From contig OY987306.1 in NCBI GenBank assembly GCA_963920635.1, positions 12,170,001 through 12,234,000 of the forward strand: DNA of 64,000 nucleotides. The letters are read 5' to 3'. Positions 55,290 through 64,000 of the stretch are shown piece by piece; the first letter of the stretch is position 1, and every line of letters starts with the position of its first letter. The stretch is from Pseudeuparius sepicola. Taxonomy: Eukaryota; Arthropoda; Insecta; Coleoptera; Anthribidae. The translations under genes were made by a program, and so were the position numbers. The notes below the pieces were generated by a model. The model did not search any database, was not told the DNA's origin, and saw nothing but the letters and a program-made list of their open reading frames with translations.

Positions 55290-57422
55290 TTAGTTGCAGG
55301 CGTCTGTCAGTAGGCGGTTAGGGTGGTTTGGTATAATTAGTTCGTACATTTTGCGTCCGTGGGTCCTAATATATTCTTGTATTGTCGGTATGTTGAGGTC
55401 GTTATACCCACGCCATTCAAAGGCGAAGGCGCATTGAGCAATTTGTATTTTGTTAATATCTATGTGTTTTTGCCGCAAAATACCAAGCGGTGCTAGCGTA
55501 CAGGAGAGCGGGTCTAATTGCCTATGTATAGATAAAAACCTTACTTTGGACGTTGAGTTTTGAGTTACTAGCCAAGAGAGGATATAATTTCGACACGGCC
55601 GCTTTGGCTTTTCTAATTCTGGAATTTATATGCGAGAGCCAAGTTAAACTTTTGTCCAAAAGTATACCGCTTCGTTATTCCAATCCAATACGGTTTGATT
55701 GAGTTTAATACGTTCTATATCTGGTATATTGTTTTTTTTTGCGATAACAATGGCCTGAATTTTCCTCTTATTGACTCTAATTTTCCACTTTAAAAAGTAT
55801 TCCGCGATCGAGTCCACGGCGCGTTGCAGGAAAGCTTTAACAAACCTAAGACTTTAATGTACTGCTAGAATCGCTGTATCGTCCGCGTAAAGGAAGACCT
55901 GCGTATTCGAATTCGACGTCAAGTCGCTGATATATAGACACTGTACAGAATTGGGCCTAGGACCGCGCCCTGTGGTACGCCTGCTTGTATTTCTCGAAAT
56001 TCGGAATTTTTCTTTTCGATTTTGAAGCAAAATTTCCTACCGGTCATAATGCCTCCAACAAAGCGGACAATGGGGACTGAGGAAACCCCCCGGAGCATCT
56101 TATAGATCAGTCCCCAGTGCCACACTTTGTCAAAGGCTTTTGCTATGTCCAATTAGATCAAGCCAGCGCTTTTCTAGATTTGCAAATTTGCCGCTATATT
56201 CTCCACCAACCTGGCTTGCAGCTCGGTGCTATGCATTGCGCTGAAGCCAAATTGTCCCCCCTGTAGTATATCTAGATTGTCCGCTTCCTCTACCAATCTT
56301 TTAAGTACAATTTTTTCAATTATTTTTGAAAGATAGCAAACTAATCGGTCTATAATCACTAGGTGCACTAGAACCGCTTTTCTTGGGGATAGTGACTATC
56401 TGAGATTTTTTCCACTCTTTTGGAAAGTACTACGTCCTGAGGATGGCGTTGGTTAGGTTTAAAATGGACACCCTGTATTTTTTAAGAAAAAGTTTTATCG
56501 CTTTATTGGTAACTCCGTCCAAACCAGGGGCTTTCCTGGCCGGCAAGAATTTAATAATATTATTAATTTTCTCAGGATCGCAGAATTGTAGATGTGCCAT
56601 CGGAGCGCCTCCTAAAAGTCTTTCAGCCGTACCAATGACGTCAGCCTCCCACTCCGGATCATCCCTGGGATTTTGGTTCACCGAGAACTGAGAGACATAC
56701 TCAATTGTCATTTTTATGTTCAAAAATTCTGTCTTTTACTAGTCTTGTCAGTCTATTGTACTCGGCGTTATGTCCAGTCCGTTGAGCCATTTTTTGGCTC
56801 TCCTCTTGCGTGCAATGAGATCTTTGATATCTTGAGGCAGTTTAGTCGAAAAGTATGTACGTAGTGGTCGTTGTCGTAGTAGATTCAGAAAGTGCATTTT
56901 CTATTACATTTTGTATAGTGTCTGTGTAATTGTCTGTCTCGTGCGTCTGTTATATGTCGTAGCGGAGGAGGGTTGAGCAAAAGTACTGTTTTGTATGTCT
57001 CCCAGTTCATATTAAATCTGTAGACATATTGGTTCAATTCAAACCATTGTCATTTGTTAGATTTCCAAAAGTTAAAGTAACCAGATTGTGGTCACTATCC
57101 AGATCAGAGGTCGTGTACACCTCGTAATTGCGATTGCAGCCGAAATTATTGTGCGTGACGAACAAATCTAGGACACCAGGGGTTCCCCTGCCTGCCGCGG
57201 GGTATCTGGTCGGCTCAGAAGGGGCAATTACCCGCATGTTGTTGGAGAAGACATAGTATCTTTCGAGAAGCCTGCCGTACCGGTTACCTGGTAACGGTGA
57301 CCAGGTAAGTATAATGTCTTGCGTTGAAGTCCCCATCTGCAACTATAGGGTTGTCAATGGCGTTGTCAAAAATTTCATTTAGCTCGTTTACATCAAGTAA
57401 ATTGTTAGGTGGTATACTTATA

Positions 57423-58132
57423 CAGGGTGAGTCACATCTAAAGTCAGAGCCGAAAACACAAGGTAGAACTCGCTAAAATAAGCACATATGCTTAATAAAC
57501 ATTAGCCCAAAAAAGCTTGGTTCTCCATATACAGCGTGTTGAAAATTTTCCAAAAATAACATATTTTTTTAATTTCTTTCGATCCCATTTAGGAATTCCA
57601 ACCAAATTTGGTACACATTATACACTGGACGGTTGCCATTTTGTGGAATAATTTGACCCCGTTCCGATCACCAGCGGCGTAGGTACAAATAGTTACTGTA
57701 AATAATTGTAGAAAAAAAGTAGTACGGCCCTGTGCAAAACCAAAAATTTTGCCTTTTTTGGATAGCCTATTTAATTTGGAACAAAAAGTGCCTCTTGGTA
57801 TTTTTTTTATTTCTGGTACAGTTTCTTCGTAATTTCGGATTTTTTAAACTAGTGTCAAGGTGATTATGCTGGCATTTTAAATAAAATTATTTGTATCTAC
57901 GCCGCTGCTCATCTGAACAGGGCCAAATTATTGCACAAAATGACAACCCATAATATGTATAAAATAATTCCTAAACGGGCTAGAAAAAAATTAAAAAATA
58001 TTTGGAAAAGTTTCAACACTCTGTATATGGAGAACCAAGCGTTTTTGAGCTAATGTTTATTAAGCATATGTGCTTATTTTAGCGAATTCTACCTTGTGTT
58101 TTCGGCTCTGCCTTTAGATGTGACTCACCCTG
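57423..58132. mobile_element. Fold-back MITE inside the LINE, TA-CAGGGTGAGTC
   Basis: The ends CAGGGTGAGTCACATCTAAAG and CTTTAGATGTGACTCACCCTG have TA on both sides. The arms run about 160 bp. The LINE endonuclease frame resumes on either side. Confidence 0.88.
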
Positions 58133-58275
58133 TATATAGTATAAATGAAATTTTTGCCATCTGCCATTTTAATTTGGATGGACACGTATTCTGCACACGT
58201 ATTTATGTCAGCGGACCTGTACGTCGTAAAGGAGACGGATCCGTGCACGGCGATAAGCACGCCCCCATGTCTCCG

Positions 58276-58606
58276 TTGCCGACAGCGAAAGTGACGTTAG
58301 ATTTCGTATTTTTTTAAGTTGTATAGCATAAAATCTAATAACATTTTACCTGGCAAAAATTTAGTACAAACATCTCTGTCTTCATTTTAATCATAAGATC
58401 TTACAAGCAGTGTTTCGGTTTATAGGTTATGAAAACCTTGGAAAAAATAATAATTCCAGTGCATATGCTTTTAAGATCTTATGATTAAAATTAAGACAGA
58501 TATGTTTGTACCTACTAAATTTTTGCCAGGTAAAATGTTATTAGATTTTATGCTATACAACTTTAAAAAATACGAAATCTAACGTCACATTCGCTGTCGG
58601 CAACCC
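58276..58606. mobile_element. About 330-bp inverted repeat inside the LINE
   Basis: The arms begin TTGCCGACAGCGAA(A/T)GTGA and run about 110 bp through 'gttgtatagcataaaatc'. The LINE endonuclease reading frame is broken here. Confidence 0.75.
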
Positions 58607-59060
58607 CCTCTTAAGCCTGTCTCTAAGAACGATACTATAATTCTGCAGTTTAAAAATTATGTGAGGTTTGAGAAATGTTTCCTGCAACGCTATTACGTGA
58701 ACCTCATTCTCTTCCAGAAAATTTAGTAACTCGCTTCTCTTGTTCATAACGCCATTGGCGTTCCAAGTAACAAATTTTAACTTATCCGGTAACGACCCGT
58801 CCCCTTCTTTGTGCACCATTACCGATACCTAACATCTGCATAAGTTTCTGGAGTGCCGGCAGAAGCTCTCGCATCACCGATGATAAAGAGGGCTCCTTGG
58901 CGATGATCAGTTGTTGCTGATTCGAGACCTGTTTAGCCATCGCAGCGTCGTACAATAAATTTTGAAAACTTTTGACATCTATGGCACTGAGTCACCTTCG
59001 GTCGCGTCCTCTTTGGTTCAAAAGTGACCCAGTTATCGATATTTCTACCTCATTAAAAAT

Positions 59061-59340
59061 ATTTTTTGATTCTTAGGTTTTGGGCAAAATAATTAACAAA
59101 TTGTCCTGGGCACCTGATTTCTCCCCTTTAGTCGAATCACACTTTTTTGATATTGTAGCCCTTTTTAAAAAAAGTTCTTTTTTAGCGGTGTCAGTATTGA
59201 ATTCGACAGGAAAATTTCTGACGAATAAGTACGTGTAGTGATTTATCGTCAGGGGTGCGGTAAGAGTGGTATTCTATTTTGTTTAAAGTGAAAAATTTTT
59301 GAATAGCTCTGTAGTCATCCGTAAGTAGTATAGCAAAGGG
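59061..59340. other. Junction between LINE and viral-type element
   Basis: No gene. The left end of the viral-type element probably lies between here and the repeat array. I could not identify a terminal inverted repeat because the other end is outside the window. Confidence 0.35.
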
Positions 59341-59344
59341 GACT

Positions 59345-59945
59345 CCAGGGCGGAAGTGACGTCACAAGATGGCCGCCAAGGCGGGAAATTTGAAAATGAC
59401 CTTGACCTGCGGCTTCAATGAACTTTAAGGGGTCACCTTGTTAACCTTGACCGGTCAATGAACTTTAAGAGGTCACCTTATTAACCTTGACCTGAAGGTC
59501 AATGAACTTTAAGAGGTCACCTTGACACGTGGCACTTTTTCTGGGAACGGAAGTGACGTCAATATGGCCACCAAGGCGGGAAATTTGAAAATAACCTTGA
59601 CCTGCGGGTTCAATGAACTTTAAGGGGTCACGTTCCATTAACCTTGACCTGAAGCTAGAGGTCAAGTGGTTACCAGATCGATAACCTTTAAGGGGTCATT
59701 GACCCGCGGGTTCAATGAACTTTAAGGGGTCACCTTATTAACCTTGACCTAAAGGTCAATGAACTTTAAGAGGTCACCTTGTTAACCTTGACCGGTCCAT
59801 GAACTTTAAGAGATCACCTTTTTAACCTTGACCTGAAGGTCAATGAACTTTAAGAGGTCACAGTTAACCTTGACCTGAGGGTCAATGAACTTTAAGAGGT
59901 CACCTTGTTAACCTGAAGGTCAGTGATCTCATCACCTTGACACGT
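59345..59945 (+). repeat. AGGTCA-rich tandem array at the left of the viral-type element
   Basis: Roughly nine copies of 'tgaactttaag(a/g)ggtcac' are spaced about 40-100 bp apart, mostly with 'ttaaccttgacc' between them. A larger unit ('gaagtgacgtca...ccaaggcgggaaatttgaaaat') occurs twice, at 59351 and 59549. AGGTCA or TGACCT half-sites are frequent, including everted pairs TGACCT-nn-AGGTCA. It is non-coding. Confidence 0.85.
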
Positions 59946-60035
59946 GGCACCTTGATATAAAAAACGTAAGCAAAAATTATGCAGATGTTTGCACTAAAAC
60001 AGTTGACGTAGCATTTAGGTGGGGGGCATTGGGGT

Positions 60036-60066
60036 TATAAGGAGGACGCCGTTGGGAGAGCTCACT
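60036..60066 (+). promoter_or_regulatory. Promoter of the 100-aa gene
   Basis: TATAAG at 60036 is followed 26 bp later by TCACT at 60062, an arthropod-type initiator. The ATG is at 60102. Confidence 0.5.
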
Positions 60067-60101
60067 ATACCCAGTCAACAGTGCTTGAATAATATTGAAA
60101 T

Positions 60102-60404
60102 ATGTCTTTACTCAAACAGTTGAACGAAAATAACTTCGTAAAAGAAATTGTGAGTGCAAGAGAGTTAGTGGTTGGTGAAAAACATAAAATTTTATCTTTT
60201 AGAACAATTGAAACAAGGTACGGGGAGAAAGTGTTCGTCGAATTTGAAAATTTTCAAACTGCGCTACCTGCACGGTTCGTAAAAGAATTTACGTCTGAAC
60301 GCATCGAATACATAAACCGGGAAATCACCAACGGAAAGAAGATCTTCTTGACGAGTCTGGGCCTCATTGGTAGGACAACGAATATTAAATTTGAGGAAGA
60401 ATGA
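60102..60404 (+). CDS. 100-aa protein of viral-type element, possible OB-fold
   Basis: An intact frame from ATG 60102 to TGA. The first half alternates strands: KILSFRTIETRYGEKVFVEF has the rhythm of a small beta-barrel, followed by a conserved-looking LPARFVKEF. A C-terminal strand, KKIFLTSLGLIGRTTNIKFE, follows. This is reminiscent of small OB-fold nucleic-acid-binding proteins found near viral replication genes, but there is no diagnostic motif and the call is an inference from pattern. It is followed by the 50-aa ORF with an ATGA overlap. No damage is seen. Confidence 0.6.
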   Translation: MSLLKQLNENNFVKEIVSARELVVGEKHKILSFRTIETRYGEKVFVEFENFQTALPARFVKEFTSERIEYINREITNGKKIFLTSLGLIGRTTNIKFEEE

Positions 60405-60553
60405 ATCCCACTGACAAGAGGCGACGCAGACAACACTACAAAAGAAGATTGAAATTTTATCTAAGATCTCTTCAAAATTTGAAATATGAAATTCAAATGT
60501 ATGAAATAAATAAAAAGTTCAAAAACATAAATTTAGAAAATTGTAAAAAATAA
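60401..60553 (+). CDS. 50-aa basic protein, ATGA-overlapping
   Basis: The ATG (60401) overlaps the TGA of the upstream gene (60402-60404) as ATGA. The 50 codons encode a very basic start (MNPTDKRRRRQHYKRRLKFY) and a Lys/Asn/Tyr-rich helical remainder ending in NCKK. The TAA stop lies inside an AATAAA poly(A) signal (60549-60554). No domain is recognised. A nucleic-acid-binding role is suggested only by charge. Its last 33 codons lie within the segment that is duplicated at 61634. Confidence 0.5.
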   Translation: MNPTDKRRRRQHYKRRLKFYLRSLQNLKYEIQMYEINKKFKNINLENCKK

Positions 60554-60665
60554 AATATGAAATCTAGTCTATCTTTTATTTACCCCTACAAAATTGAAAC
60601 TCAAATCTGAATGTTCCGATTGCTTCTGAGCGCCGAACATATAAATACGTCCAAGTGCATTTGAC
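60453..60665 (+). repeat. 213-bp direct duplication, copy 1
   Basis: This matches 61634-61846 without gaps (constant offset 1181) and with only a handful of mismatches. It includes the 3' end of the 50-aa ORF, the poly(A) signal and a TATAAATA promoter box (60640). After this copy the initiator context is lost (AGGATTCATTG instead of CGGATCAGTTC), and no gene follows. Confidence 0.93.
60549..60554 (+). terminator. Poly(A) signal overlapping a stop codon
   Basis: AATAAA contains the TAA stop of the 50-aa ORF. The duplicate segment carries the same signal at 61730. Confidence 0.5.
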
Positions 60666-60958
60666 AGGATTCATTGACACTTGATAGACTATATTAATAA
60701 CAATTTTGGGTGCGGTTACTTTAATTCCTAGTATATTTTTGGACATTTTCGTTCATTTTATTTACAAAATTATTCTTCCTTATTTTTTATAAGATTATAA
60801 GTTGGCTGAAGTAGCTGCATTAATGTTAAGAAATCTAAAAAACGTTGAAAAGTTATAAGTCTAAAGGAATAGCTCTGGATATTCTTATCTATTAATAAAA
60901 GTATTTCATTTTCTGACACGTCAGGTCAACAATCTACCGAACAGCGAAATTATACGCT
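60666..60958. other. Spacer between duplication and tandem array
   Basis: AT-rich and non-coding. It shows two AGGTCAA words near 60925 and 60975, like those inside the tandem units. Confidence 0.45.
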
Positions 60959-60985
60959 GGTTTCTTGACGCAGCAGGTCAATAAT

Positions 60986-61633
60986 CGACTCACATTGCAA
61001 ACTGCAACATCAGCTAAATATATGCTAACGCCGCAGGTCAACAACCATGCTATGTCATCAGATTGTTTTCTGCCGAATAGCATGAAATTTGAAACCGGAA
61101 ATGAAACATGATACCACGGTGTCAGATTACAAAGGTGTCAAATTTCATGGGTTTCTTGACTCATCGACTCACATTGTAAACTGCAACATCAGCTAAATAT
61201 ATGCTAACGCCGCAGGTCAACAACCATGCTATGTCATCAGATTGTTTTCTGCCGAATAGCATGAAATTTGAAACCGGAAATGAAACATGATACCACGGTG
61301 TCAGATTACAAAGGTGTCAAATTTCATGGGTTTCTTGACTCATCGACTCACATTGTAAACTGCAACATCAGCTAAATATATGCTAACGCCGCAGGTCAAC
61401 AACCATGCTATGTCATCAGATTGTTTTCTGCCGAATAGCATGAAATTTGAAACCGGAAATGAAACATGATACCACGGTGTCAGATTACAAAGGTGTCAAA
61501 TTTCATGGGTTTCTTGACTCATCGACTCACATTGTAAACTGCAACATCAGCTAAATATATGCTAACGCCGCAGGTCAACAACCATGCTATGTCATCAAAT
61601 TGTTTTCTGTCGAATAGCATGAAATTTGAAACG
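60986..61633 (+). repeat. 179-bp tandem repeat, about 3.6 copies
   Basis: Units start at 60986, 61165, 61344 and 61523 ('cgactcacattg'). Each contains 'gccgcaggtcaacaacc' and 'gaatagcatgaaatttgaaa'. Copies 2 and 3 are almost identical. The last stops at 61633, exactly where the second copy of the 213-bp segment begins. The array lies between the two promoter copies of the viral-type element. Confidence 0.95.
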
Positions 61634-61846
61634 AATTTTATCTAAGATCTCTTCAAAATTTGAAATATGAAATTCAAATGTATGAAATAAATAAAAAGTT
61701 CAAAAACATAAATTTAGAAAATTGTAAAAAATAAAATGTGAAACCTGGTCAATCTTTTATTTACCCCTACAAAATTGAAACTCAAATCTGAAAGTTCCGA
61801 TTGCTTCTGAGCGCAGAACATATAAATACGTCCAAGTGCATTTGAC
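61634..61846 (+). repeat. 213-bp direct duplication, copy 2
   Basis: This is the second copy of 60453-60665. It supplies the TATA box used by the phospholipase gene. Confidence 0.93.
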
Positions 61847-61856
61847 TCGGATCAGT
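61821..61856 (+). promoter_or_regulatory. Promoter of the phospholipase gene
   Basis: TATAAATA at 61821 and the initiator ATCAGTTC (A at 61854) are 33 bp apart. The next ATG is at 61860, six bases after the predicted start of transcription. Confidence 0.68.
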
Positions 61857-61859
61857 TCA

Positions 61860-62660
61860 ATGTCATCCTTCACAGGTGAAGGGTTGGTGAACACGCTAAT
61901 AAATAAGTTGCCCGTCGAATTACATCTTCCTGGATATCAGTTTTGTGGTCCTGGCACAAAATTACAAAAAAGAATTGCGAGAGGTGACGCTGGTATAAAT
62001 AAGTTAGACGCTGCGTGCAAGGAGCACGATATTGCATATTCAGAAAATAGATCTTTAAAGGAGAGACACGCAGCCGATTTAGAATTGGAAAATAGGGCTT
62101 GGGGACGTGTTAAATCAAAAGACGCAAAATTTGGTGAAAAGGCTGCCGCTCTTCTAGTCACGACCGCAATGAAAACTAAACTAAAATTGGGAATGGGAAT
62201 AAAGCCGAGAAAAGGTTCGGTTTCTTTTAAAAAAGATATCGTGGGAAAAGTCTCGAGATCATTGAAAAAAACATTTGATACAGATCAGCTTAATGATGTC
62301 AGGAATTTAAAGAAAACTTCATCGGCAGCTTTGCGCGCTGCACGATTAGCCATCAAGAAGGTGGGAGGGAAACGAAAAATTCGAGTACCGAGAGTGATTC
62401 CCTTTGAAAAGAAAACAGGGGTTTTTTTACCCCTACTGCCCCTCTTAGGAGCTTTGGGGGCCCTCGGTTCGGTAGCTGGTGGTGCTAGCGCTGTTGCAAA
62501 AACCGTTATAGACGCAAAAAACGCGCAGAAAAAAATGGATGAACAAATACGTCATAATAGGGCAATGGAAGCTATTGGAAAATCGGGATCTGGGCTTTAC
62601 TTAAAGAAAAATAATCACGGAGGATTCGGTTTATATTTAAAGAAAAAAAACTCCCATTGA
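61860..62660 (+). CDS. PLA2 (parvovirus VP1-type) protein of viral-type element
   Basis: The 266-residue product has the calcium-loop motif YQFCGPGT (residues 26-33). The catalytic pair His56-Asp57 lies in LDAACKEHDIAY. This is the secreted-type phospholipase A2 fold used by parvovirus VP1 and also found in adintovirus-like elements, where it is thought to breach membranes during entry. A basic middle follows, then a hydrophobic Gly/Ala/Leu segment (about 187-215) that could insert in membranes. The C-terminus carries two GLYLKK repeats. No capsid domain is fused, unlike parvovirus VP1. I start at ATG 61860 rather than the in-frame ATG 61836, because 61836 lies upstream of the predicted initiator. 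The stop overlaps the protease start as TGATG. The frame is intact. Confidence 0.83.
   Translation: MSSFTGEGLVNTLINKLPVELHLPGYQFCGPGTKLQKRIARGDAGINKLDAACKEHDIAYSENRSLKERHAADLELENRAWGRVKSKDAKFGEKAAALLVTTAMKTKLKLGMGIKPRKGSVSFKKDIVGKVSRSLKKTFDTDQLNDVRNLKKTSSAALRAARLAIKKVGGKRKIRVPRVIPFEKKTGVFLPLLPLLGALGALGSVAGGASAVAKTVIDAKNAQKKMDEQIRHNRAMEAIGKSGSGLYLKKNNHGGFGLYLKKKNSH
62632..62656 (+). promoter_or_regulatory. Weak candidate promoter of the protease gene
   Basis: TATATTTAAA at 62632 lies inside the C-terminal GLYLKK coding repeat, 24 bp before CCATTG. It is a poorer fit than the neighbouring promoters. Expression by reinitiation at TGATG is an alternative. Confidence 0.3.
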
Positions 62661-63025
62661 TGCTACCCAATAGACCTCTAACGGATAAAGATTTAATTTT
62701 TTACGCTAAAAAGATAAAAATACCTTATTTTAGAGGTGTCTTTATGAGAGACACGCTTCCAAAACTTGGTCCAAACAAAAACGAATCGGCAATTTTGAAT
62801 TTAGACGTCAAAAGTAATGCTGGAACACATTGGGTAGCATATGAGAAAAGAGGTAACAACGTTGAGTATTTCGATAGTTTCGGGGCGCTGAAGCCACCGA
62901 AAGAACTGATCCTATACTTGGGGAAACATACTAATATCGTATACAACAATAACTCGTATCAAACATACGATGAAATAAATTGCGGACACCTCTGTTTGGA
63001 ATTTTTACGTGGAAAAACCCTATAA
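62660..63025 (+). CDS. Adenain-like cysteine protease
   Basis: A 121-residue C5/Ulp1-type cysteine protease, related to the adenovirus maturation protease that cleaves capsid precursors. The catalytic residues appear in the expected order: His57 in AGTHWVAYEK, Asp72 in EYFDSFG, Gln101 in SYQTYD and Cys108 in NCGHLCLEF. RGVFMRDTLP (25-34) is a further family-like block. It is shorter than adenovirus adenain (about 200 aa), lacking much of the C-terminus, but this size fits adintovirus/Polinton-type copies. The ATG at 62660 follows the phospholipase stop (TGATG). A TTG three bases upstream is not taken as a start. The stop codon TAA (63023) sits inside the TATA box of the next gene. No disabling change is seen. 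Confidence 0.85.
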   Translation: MLPNRPLTDKDLIFYAKKIKIPYFRGVFMRDTLPKLGPNKNESAILNLDVKSNAGTHWVAYEKRGNNVEYFDSFGALKPPKELILYLGKHTNIVYNNNSYQTYDEINCGHLCLEFLRGKTL

Positions 63026-63056
63026 AACAGAAGAAATTATCATATTTTTGCTCAGT
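63021..63056 (+). promoter_or_regulatory. Promoter of the 242-aa gene, overlapping protease stop
   Basis: TATAAAA at 63021 and the initiator TCAGT (A at 63054) are 33 bp apart, with the ATG at 63058. The TAA inside the TATA box is the protease stop codon. Confidence 0.72.
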
Positions 63057-63057
63057 C

Positions 63058-63786
63058 ATGTCGCAGACGTTTACTTTGACGGGTAACGGTAGCTACATCT
63101 CCAAATCGTTTTTTCCGCCCCTTGAGCTAGATCCTCAGTACGAATATTCGCTAGCGTTAATTTCTCTATCTACTTGGAATTCAATTCCAAATATAGAGGG
63201 AGGACACAACAAGCTATATTTCGTAGATCACAGAGGAAGCGAGATAGAAATTGAGATTCCGACAGGAGCATATGAGATTCGGGATATTGAGAATTACGTT
63301 CAGAAACAACTAGGAAGTTCGCTGGATAATCAGCAAGAACTAGACGAAATTTTTTCGTTGAAACCTAACAATAATACTTTAAAGTGTGAACTTAAATCTC
63401 TGTATAACGTAAATTTTAAACAGCCCGATACTATAGCTAAATTGCTTGGCTTTTCCAATAAAATATTGAAATCCGGAGATTTACATCAATCAGACCTCCG
63501 AGTAGAGATTGTGCAAGTGGTAACAATAAGAGTGGAGTGCAATTTAATTTCGGGATCATATTACAACAACGCACCTTCGCATACTCTTTTTGAGTTTATG
63601 CCTACAGTAGACCCAGGATACAGTATCAATATCGAACCTAGGAATCTAATTTATTTGCCTGTCAGTAGGAAAACCATCGACAATATTACAGTGCAACTTT
63701 TAGATCAAGATTCAAGATCGGTAAATCTCAACGGGGAAGAAATCATAATCAGATTGGAGCTGAAGAGAAATGGTGTTAGTTTTTGA
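63058..63786 (+). CDS. 242-aa beta-rich protein, candidate minor capsid/penton
   Basis: The start is ATG 63058 (MSQTFTLTGNGSY), chosen because it directly follows the TCAGT initiator. The open frame extends upstream to 62980 but without an ATG, over the protease 3' end. The sequence is rich in predicted strands (EYSLALISLSTW, KLYFVDHRGSEIEIEIPTG) with one helix (YEIRDIENYVQKQL). It ends in a regular strand series (NLIYLPVSRKTIDNITVQLL). I have an impression, unverified, of similar proteins next to PLA2 and adenain genes in other arthropod elements. Its place after the maturation protease suggests a virion component, perhaps the penton, but no diagnostic motif proves it. It is intact. Confidence 0.62.
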   Translation: MSQTFTLTGNGSYISKSFFPPLELDPQYEYSLALISLSTWNSIPNIEGGHNKLYFVDHRGSEIEIEIPTGAYEIRDIENYVQKQLGSSLDNQQELDEIFSLKPNNNTLKCELKSLYNVNFKQPDTIAKLLGFSNKILKSGDLHQSDLRVEIVQVVTIRVECNLISGSYYNNAPSHTLFEFMPTVDPGYSINIEPRNLIYLPVSRKTIDNITVQLLDQDSRSVNLNGEEIIIRLELKRNGVSF

Positions 63787-63973
63787 TGGTAGGTACCGAC
63801 CATATAAAAGGAGTGTCGGTCGGTCGAGAAGTTCACAACCAGCAGAGCTGTACAAGAGTAGAGATCGTGATACGAGTCTTACACCTGAAAATCGCTTGTT
63901 CCTAAAATATCTCGGTCATCATGTCATTGACGCATCAAGTGTTCGACGTGCATCAGAAACCAAAGTTCGATGA
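63770..63973 (+). CDS. Small 67-aa basic ORF, uncertain
   Basis: It begins inside the end of the 242-aa gene (17-nt overlap) and reads MVLVFDGRYRPYKRSVGRSR, then SLTPENRLFLKYLGHHV. The basic N-terminus and the LTPENRLFLKYLG motif look like a real small protein rather than random sequence. However, a TATA box (63803) and initiator for the next gene lie inside it, and it overlaps the 63921 ORF in another frame. Confidence 0.45.
   Translation: MVLVFDGRYRPYKRSVGRSRSSQPAELYKSRDRDTSLTPENRLFLKYLGHHVIDASSVRRASETKVR
63803..63837 (+). promoter_or_regulatory. Promoter of the last, partial gene
   Basis: TATAAAAG at 63803 is followed by TTCACA, with the A 32 bp downstream. The first ATG after this point is 63921. 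Confidence 0.55.
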
Positions 63974-64000
63974 ATCTATTCAACGTTTAGAAGCACGCTC
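63921..64000 (+). CDS. Start of a further gene, truncated by window edge
   Basis: From ATG 63921 the frame (MSLTHQVFDVHQKPKFDESI...) is open to the last base (26 complete codons). It is the first ATG after the TATA/initiator pair at 63803-63837. By gene order, a major capsid (hexon-like) protein would be expected near here, but 26 residues cannot show it. Confidence 0.5.
   Translation, partial: MSLTHQVFDVHQKPKFDESIQRLEAR

Follow-up and report, generated by a model that had tools for sequence, protein, structure and literature searches.

A recently amplified Polinton/Maverick in the genome of the beetle Pseudeuparius sepicola and a second class of elements sharing its ends

What is the cluster of virus-like genes that runs off the right edge of a 64,000-nt stretch of the Pseudeuparius sepicola genome (contig C8, positions 12170001-12234000, hereafter the window; the genome comprises 769 Mb in 16 contigs)? 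The original prediction, made from the letters of the window, had proposed a Maverick-type element or a mid-size linear double-stranded DNA virus that entered recently or is under selection. With the DNA right of position 64000 included, the cluster was found to make up, almost certainly, the leftmost quarter of an endogenous Polinton/Maverick that is complete, measures 17,964 bp, is bordered by a 6-bp target duplication and belongs to a family recently amplified to about 100 near-identical copies.

The whole element spans positions 59324-77287 in window numbering, so the left boundary first placed at 59345 has to be moved outwards. On both sides it is bordered by an exact 6-bp target duplication, TCCGTA, with the left copy at 59318..59323 and the right copy at 77288-77293, outside the window and directly after the element; a 6-bp target duplication is a hallmark of Polintons/Mavericks. 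Terminal inverted repeats of ~2 kb were determined, the left one at 59324..61423 with the tip AGTAGTATAGC and the right one ending at 77287, and window positions 59320-61423 were 97.4% identical to the inverted right end (L011:6591-4447) over 2146 alignment columns; inverted repeats with a 5-6 bp target duplication were what the original prediction had led one to look for. An array of short repeats forms the outer part of the left inverted repeat, and an internal segment (60453..61846) consists of 213-nt direct repeats (60453-60665 and 61634-61846, 97% identical) around a 179-nt tandem array. Elsewhere in the family the spacing of the genes falls into one group near 1.78 kb and another at 2.6-3.1 kb, the latter with steps near 179; this segment therefore appears to have been gained and to vary in its repeat number, and many other copies appear to lack it.

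Inside the window, the PLA2 protein, adenain-like protease, beta-rich protein and small protein that had been predicted as open and on one strand are all present, the open frames of the cluster lying throughout on the plus strand. The phospholipase A2 (PLA2) protein of 266 amino acids (61860..62660, +) carries a parvovirus-type phospholipase A2 domain that is separate from any capsid protein, with GPGT and HD motifs and a PF08398 match over the curated cut-off (E = 1.2e-12). It has 2168 homologues at E <= 0.01 among 7990 candidates, and C29, G30, G32, H56 and D57 were invariant in an alignment that took in 29 of its 120 listed homologues. A putative adenain-like cysteine protease of 121 amino acids (62660..63025, +) follows, whose sequence shows the catalytic residues H, D, Q and C and whose PDB matches are S273R and adenain (E = 0.055-0.1). 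The frame at 63058..63786 (+), formerly described as a beta-rich protein, is real and encodes 242 amino acids, and can now be identified by its predicted fold as a putative penton (vertex) protein, the predicted fold matching the mavirus and adenovirus penton proteins at 9-14% identity, a fold-only match. Of 644 candidates for this protein, 444 proved to be homologues at E <= 0.01; since it and the PLA2 protein both have many homologues, the open frames are not due to chance.

The genes continue past the window edge with a double-jelly-roll major capsid protein of 411 amino acids (63921-65156, +; PF21738, E = 2.4e-70), the first 80 bases of which (63921..64000) still lie in the window. It is followed by a 174-aa protein (65204-65728), an inhibitor of apoptosis (IAP) with BIR and RING domains (66066-66590; E = 5.6e-21 and 1.1e-14, respectively), an A32-type ATPase (66905-67597; PF04665, E = 2.8e-9), a 310-aa protein (67628-68560), a 176-aa coiled-coil protein (68711-69241), a retrovirus-like integrase (69238-70179; PF00665, E = 1.4e-10, over the cut-off), a 133-aa protein (70702-71103) and, on the minus strand, an EndoVII/PolB-type protein of 1253 amino acids (71235-74996). 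The last was matched by an endonuclease VII domain barely over the cut-off (E = 1.7e-5) and contains YLDVNNLYG (850) and YTDTDSLIY (1094), which we take to be polymerase (PolB) motifs. From these motifs and the published endonuclease VII-PolB architecture (PMC5803895), the protein is called a putative PolB. Searches of PHROGs and NCBIfam yielded no informative match to the uncharacterised proteins of the element. The capsid, ATPase and integrase genes thus lie within 7 kb past the window edge, as expected of the predicted Maverick-type element, and the polymerase sought in the same direction has a candidate, named from its motifs, within 11 kb. If these proteins act as their families do elsewhere, PolB would start at the ends of the linear DNA and copy it, the penton and the double-jelly-roll protein would form a capsid into which the A32-type ATPase would package the DNA, the adenain-like protease would mature the particle, PLA2 would breach the host membrane at entry as in parvovirus VP1, the IAP would delay the death of the producing cell, and the integrase would insert the DNA with a 6-bp stagger.

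Copy numbers were determined from the 150 candidates scored out of 1898 for the penton and the 150 scored out of 1168 for the IAP, and are therefore lower bounds. The first 104 listed penton matches were 94-100% identical, with 102 of the 104 covering residues 1-242 and 92 having no stop; the first 88 listed IAP matches were at least 96% identical, and 84 of the 88 had no stop. The family thus has at least ~100 near-identical copies in the genome, on 11 contigs. Of 20 further copies read from the penton list, 11 showed both of their tips, and eight of these 11 were flanked by an exact 6-bp target duplication, giving eight different duplications besides that of the window. The two repeats of one copy were 99.2-100% identical in seven copies with long alignments (991/994 in the window element) and 90.7-100% identical in four more that were compared over 138-184 columns only, this comparison covering the copies up to number 19, whose two ends did not overlap. 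Between copies, a median identity of 98.99% was determined (246 pairs from 23 inverted-repeat segments; minimum 87.5, maximum 100). The ends of one copy tend to be more alike than the ends of different copies, as would fit a cycle in which both ends are copied every time.

A second family, found at three loci (L053-L055), shares 180 of 242 aligned penton residues; its PLA2-protease-penton block is adjoined by the ATPase on the opposite strand. The ratio of nonsynonymous to synonymous differences per site (pN/pS) between element families was 0.21-0.22 for the 242-aa protein, 0.33 for the protease, 0.44 for PLA2, 0.37-0.40 and 0.48 for a 100-aa and a 50-aa protein encoded in the inverted repeats, values that come from one or two comparisons per protein with pS at 0.59-0.84, at or near saturation. 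Both halves of the predicted "recent entry or selection" were therefore borne out: the family is recently amplified, and its proteins are under purifying selection between families. IAP relatives at other loci (e.g. C3:36509445) were ~60% identical and open over ~190 amino acids; if these belong to other Mavericks, the carriage of an IAP may be older than the burst.

Several observations weigh against a complete and intact Maverick of a young family. For 9 of the 20 sampled copies the stretch read did not show both tips, 3 of the 11 two-tip copies had no matching target duplication, and in the window element the 100-aa gene of the right end is cut at residue 39. Among the gene assignments, the PF00770 match of the protease (E = 0.0041) and the chromodomain match of the integrase (E = 7.5e-4) are both under their cut-offs. 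The 1253-aa protein had no DNA polymerase match in Pfam, NCBIfam, PHROG or PDB, and its C-terminal half alone had no Pfam match. A profile of the penton alignment, which omits P0106 and P0119 from the 120 homologues listed, recovered no penton from PDB by sequence, its match being adiponectin (4dou, E = 0.0014, sub-threshold, with no stretch passing). One copy lacking a target duplication match (L013/L033, on C1 with the penton at 99637526) is flanked by inverted copies of one sequence, which extend for at least 1866 bp on each side at 99.9% identity; either the assembly is at fault here or the region was duplicated as a palindrome.

Of the other explanations, the one that survives best takes the copies as fresh integrations of a circulating exogenous virus and not as products of germ-line transposition. 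Most of the counted copies have open penton and IAP genes, the frames of the window copy are all open except the right-end 100-aa gene, and many public datasets contain relatives on short contigs, all of which would suit such a virus; the between-copy divergence, however, fits several rounds in one lineage equally well, and we consider the exogenous origin possible but rather unlikely. Far less probable is a host-kept, domesticated cluster of captured viral genes that is no mobile element: open frames and purifying selection between families would be expected of it, but the selection is explained by the element's own life, and ~100 near-identical copies on 11 contigs, with precise ends and differing target duplications in those read and with 14.5-18.4 kb between the two 100-aa genes in 21 paired copies, speak against it. 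A densovirus remnant, in which the PLA2 would stem from the unique region of VP1 in an integrated parvovirus, can practically be dismissed, as the original prediction had argued, for although the PLA2 domain is of parvovirus type and its best PDB matches were parvovirus capsid proteins (E = 0.013 and weaker), the PLA2 is a separate 266-aa protein next to a protease, penton, double-jelly-roll capsid, ATPase and integrase, no NS1 family was among the Pfam matches of the 15 open reading frames scanned, and the genes right of the window, together with inverted repeats and a 6-bp target duplication, refute it.

A 100-aa protein (60102..60404, +), present in both ends, and a 50-aa basic protein (60401..60553, +) are encoded inside the inverted repeats of the Maverick, and because both genes sit there, the element has two sets of them, both pointing inwards. 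Among 42 element ends, 25 were matched by the 100-aa protein, 21 of them whole, and 18 of these 21 had no stop. Two divergent relatives without a stop were found elsewhere in the genome (56% and 45% identity), and the comparisons with them gave pN/pS values of 0.37 and 0.40. In the protein database no homologue at E <= 0.01 was found among three candidates, by a search that sees only relatives with short exact words, and no Pfam family was significant. The oligonucleotide-binding (OB) fold once suggested for this small protein is unsupported by these searches, and its single-sequence model, with which no search for similar folds was run, had a predicted local distance difference test score (pLDDT) of 43.7. 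No description of such repeat-borne genes was found in the open-licence literature on non-autonomous Polintons and terminal inverted repeats, beyond which no dedicated search was made.

The 100-aa gene also marks elements that share the ends of the Maverick. By pairing the best 150 matches of the 100-aa gene with 150 of 162 penton matches and 57 of 150 matches of a 178-aa gene, 40 facing pairs of the 100-aa gene less than 26 kb apart were identified, of which 21 enclose a penton, 18 a 178-aa gene, none both and one neither; the 178-aa gene has no significant Pfam family. Elements with Maverick ends and, in the stretches read, without the other viral genes lie at L057 (C1:59609500-59615500), L062 (C1:59615401-59624000) and L058-L061. 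Sampling of five penton-less elements (four large, one small) began at their left side, and in the 3-6 kb read of each no other viral gene was seen. Their inverted-repeat DNA (the outer ~2 kb, including the 100-aa gene) is mostly 97-99% identical to that of the full element, with some outer repeats at 90% in the small one, a C10 element of ~4.1 kb; the large ones carry the 178-aa gene, and the small one had nothing more in the stretch read. All four elements of this second class in which both ends were read (three large and the one of ~4.1 kb) begin and end with the tip and lie between exact target duplications of 6 bp (TAAAGT, CTCGGA, AATGTT and TCTGCC). Because their first 24 bases differ from those of the window element at one position (GGGTACTCC versus GGGGACTCC), the second-class elements are a distinguishable subtype.

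One of them is a 17.6-kb palindrome of two ~8.3-kb arms around 969 bp, which was read from ~1.2 kb inside the left tip to ~1.9 kb inside the right one, with the tips read apart and ~1.6 kb near the ends unread. Besides the 178-aa gene, a reverse-transcriptase fragment was found in each arm. Over 5367 bp the two arms agree at 99.9% identity; along a 2114-bp stretch they are identical, and the two other copies compared there were 99.2% and 97.6% identical. In this palindrome, read almost whole, no polymerase or integrase gene was seen. Since the second-class elements moved as units although this one showed no such gene, mobilisation in trans is the simplest account, and the Maverick probably has its own molecular parasites, copied and inserted by the virus-encoded PolB and integrase; the shared ends suggest that the full element, and not another family, would supply these proteins. 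Fold-back copying could keep the palindrome arms identical, and such elements would be a genomic counterpart of defective-interfering genomes. If the parasite reading is true, a replicon of this kind would itself need to carry nothing beyond the inverted repeat and its genes. No description of Maverick parasites of this kind was found in the open-licence literature.

To decide whether Polintons are viruses, transposons or both, one needs Mavericks that are very young and still have the full set of virion-type genes. The present family offers a test case in a chromosome-scale genome, with ~100 young copies, most of which have open frames for the genes counted, and with both an IAP and a PLA2 that stands alone. 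Its interest is increased by this IAP, by the genes within the repeats and by the end-sharing elements, and the last would allow direct tests of the minimal end sequences for replication and integration and of whether defective derivatives hold a Maverick in check.

Relatives and neighbours of the element were also surveyed. Scans of IMG/VR with the single proteins and the penton alignment yielded no relative but one 7.6-kb contig (L001), which matched the PLA2 core at 32% and left the other 13 element proteins unmatched at E <= 0.01; the GTDB genomes scanned with the penton alignment gave no relative, nor did tblastn of the penton and the PolB-type protein against phage records. Three proteins assigned in their records to Rickettsia endosymbionts of insects (P0119, P0206 and P0231) match the Maverick penton and PLA2 proteins and perhaps come from host DNA in endosymbiont assemblies. 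The 14 proteins of the element had no match at E <= 1e-3 in window positions 1-59323. Left of the element, at 55919-58819 on the minus strand, lie broken reverse transcriptase and endonuclease frames of a retrotransposon without long terminal repeats, as judged from the translations.

By its integrase, double-jelly-roll capsid, A32/FtsK-type ATPase, penton (from the predicted structure), inverted repeats and 6-bp duplication, the window element is a new, recently amplified member of the Eupolintoviridae, a Polinton/Maverick family that was named Adintoviridae until 2025 (PMC12451622). Its length falls within the 15-25 kb usual for Polintons/Mavericks (PMC6431247). Since more than 1000 beetle contigs have been placed in the Eupolintoviridae (PMC12567637), the kind is already known and is common in beetles. 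In the open-licence literature we found no description of an adintovirus or Maverick with an IAP, nor of adintovirus, phospholipase A2 and adenain together.

Compared with known systems, Drosophila-associated adintoviruses 1-3 are shorter (13.3-14.6 kb), and adintovirus 1 has PolB, integrase, capsid, protease and FtsK, gene types that also occur here; a 161-aa protein of adintovirus 2 matches the penton model (E = 9.1e-6). PLA2 and IAP, both present here, are not mentioned in the available part of that report (PMC8363768). The closest gene content is that of the Spodoptera Mavericks, Sf Maverick 1 and 2 from Spodoptera frugiperda cells (PMC5803895), in which a 258-aa PLA2 without a fused capsid likewise adjoins an adenain-like protease (133 aa). 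They further have an ATPase of 228 aa followed by a 305-aa ORF2 and then the integrase, as here the ATPase, the 310-aa protein and the integrase, and their 310-aa integrase with a chromodomain and 1162-aa endonuclease VII-PolB have counterparts here. The block order differs, namely that ATP-ORF2-INT precedes CAP-PRO in their table, whereas the PLA2-protease-penton-capsid block comes first in the beetle element; a 148-aa ORF6 occupies the place of the 242-aa penton, and the Sf Maverick section mentions neither an IAP nor repeat-borne genes, both of which are present here. That report found no homologue of Maverick PY, the supposed double-jelly-roll capsid, and gave the name capsid to the PLA2 protein. 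Because the 411-aa protein of the beetle element, which matches PF21738, is of the size of their 404-aa ORF7, we suspect that ORF7 is the capsid of the Sf Mavericks.

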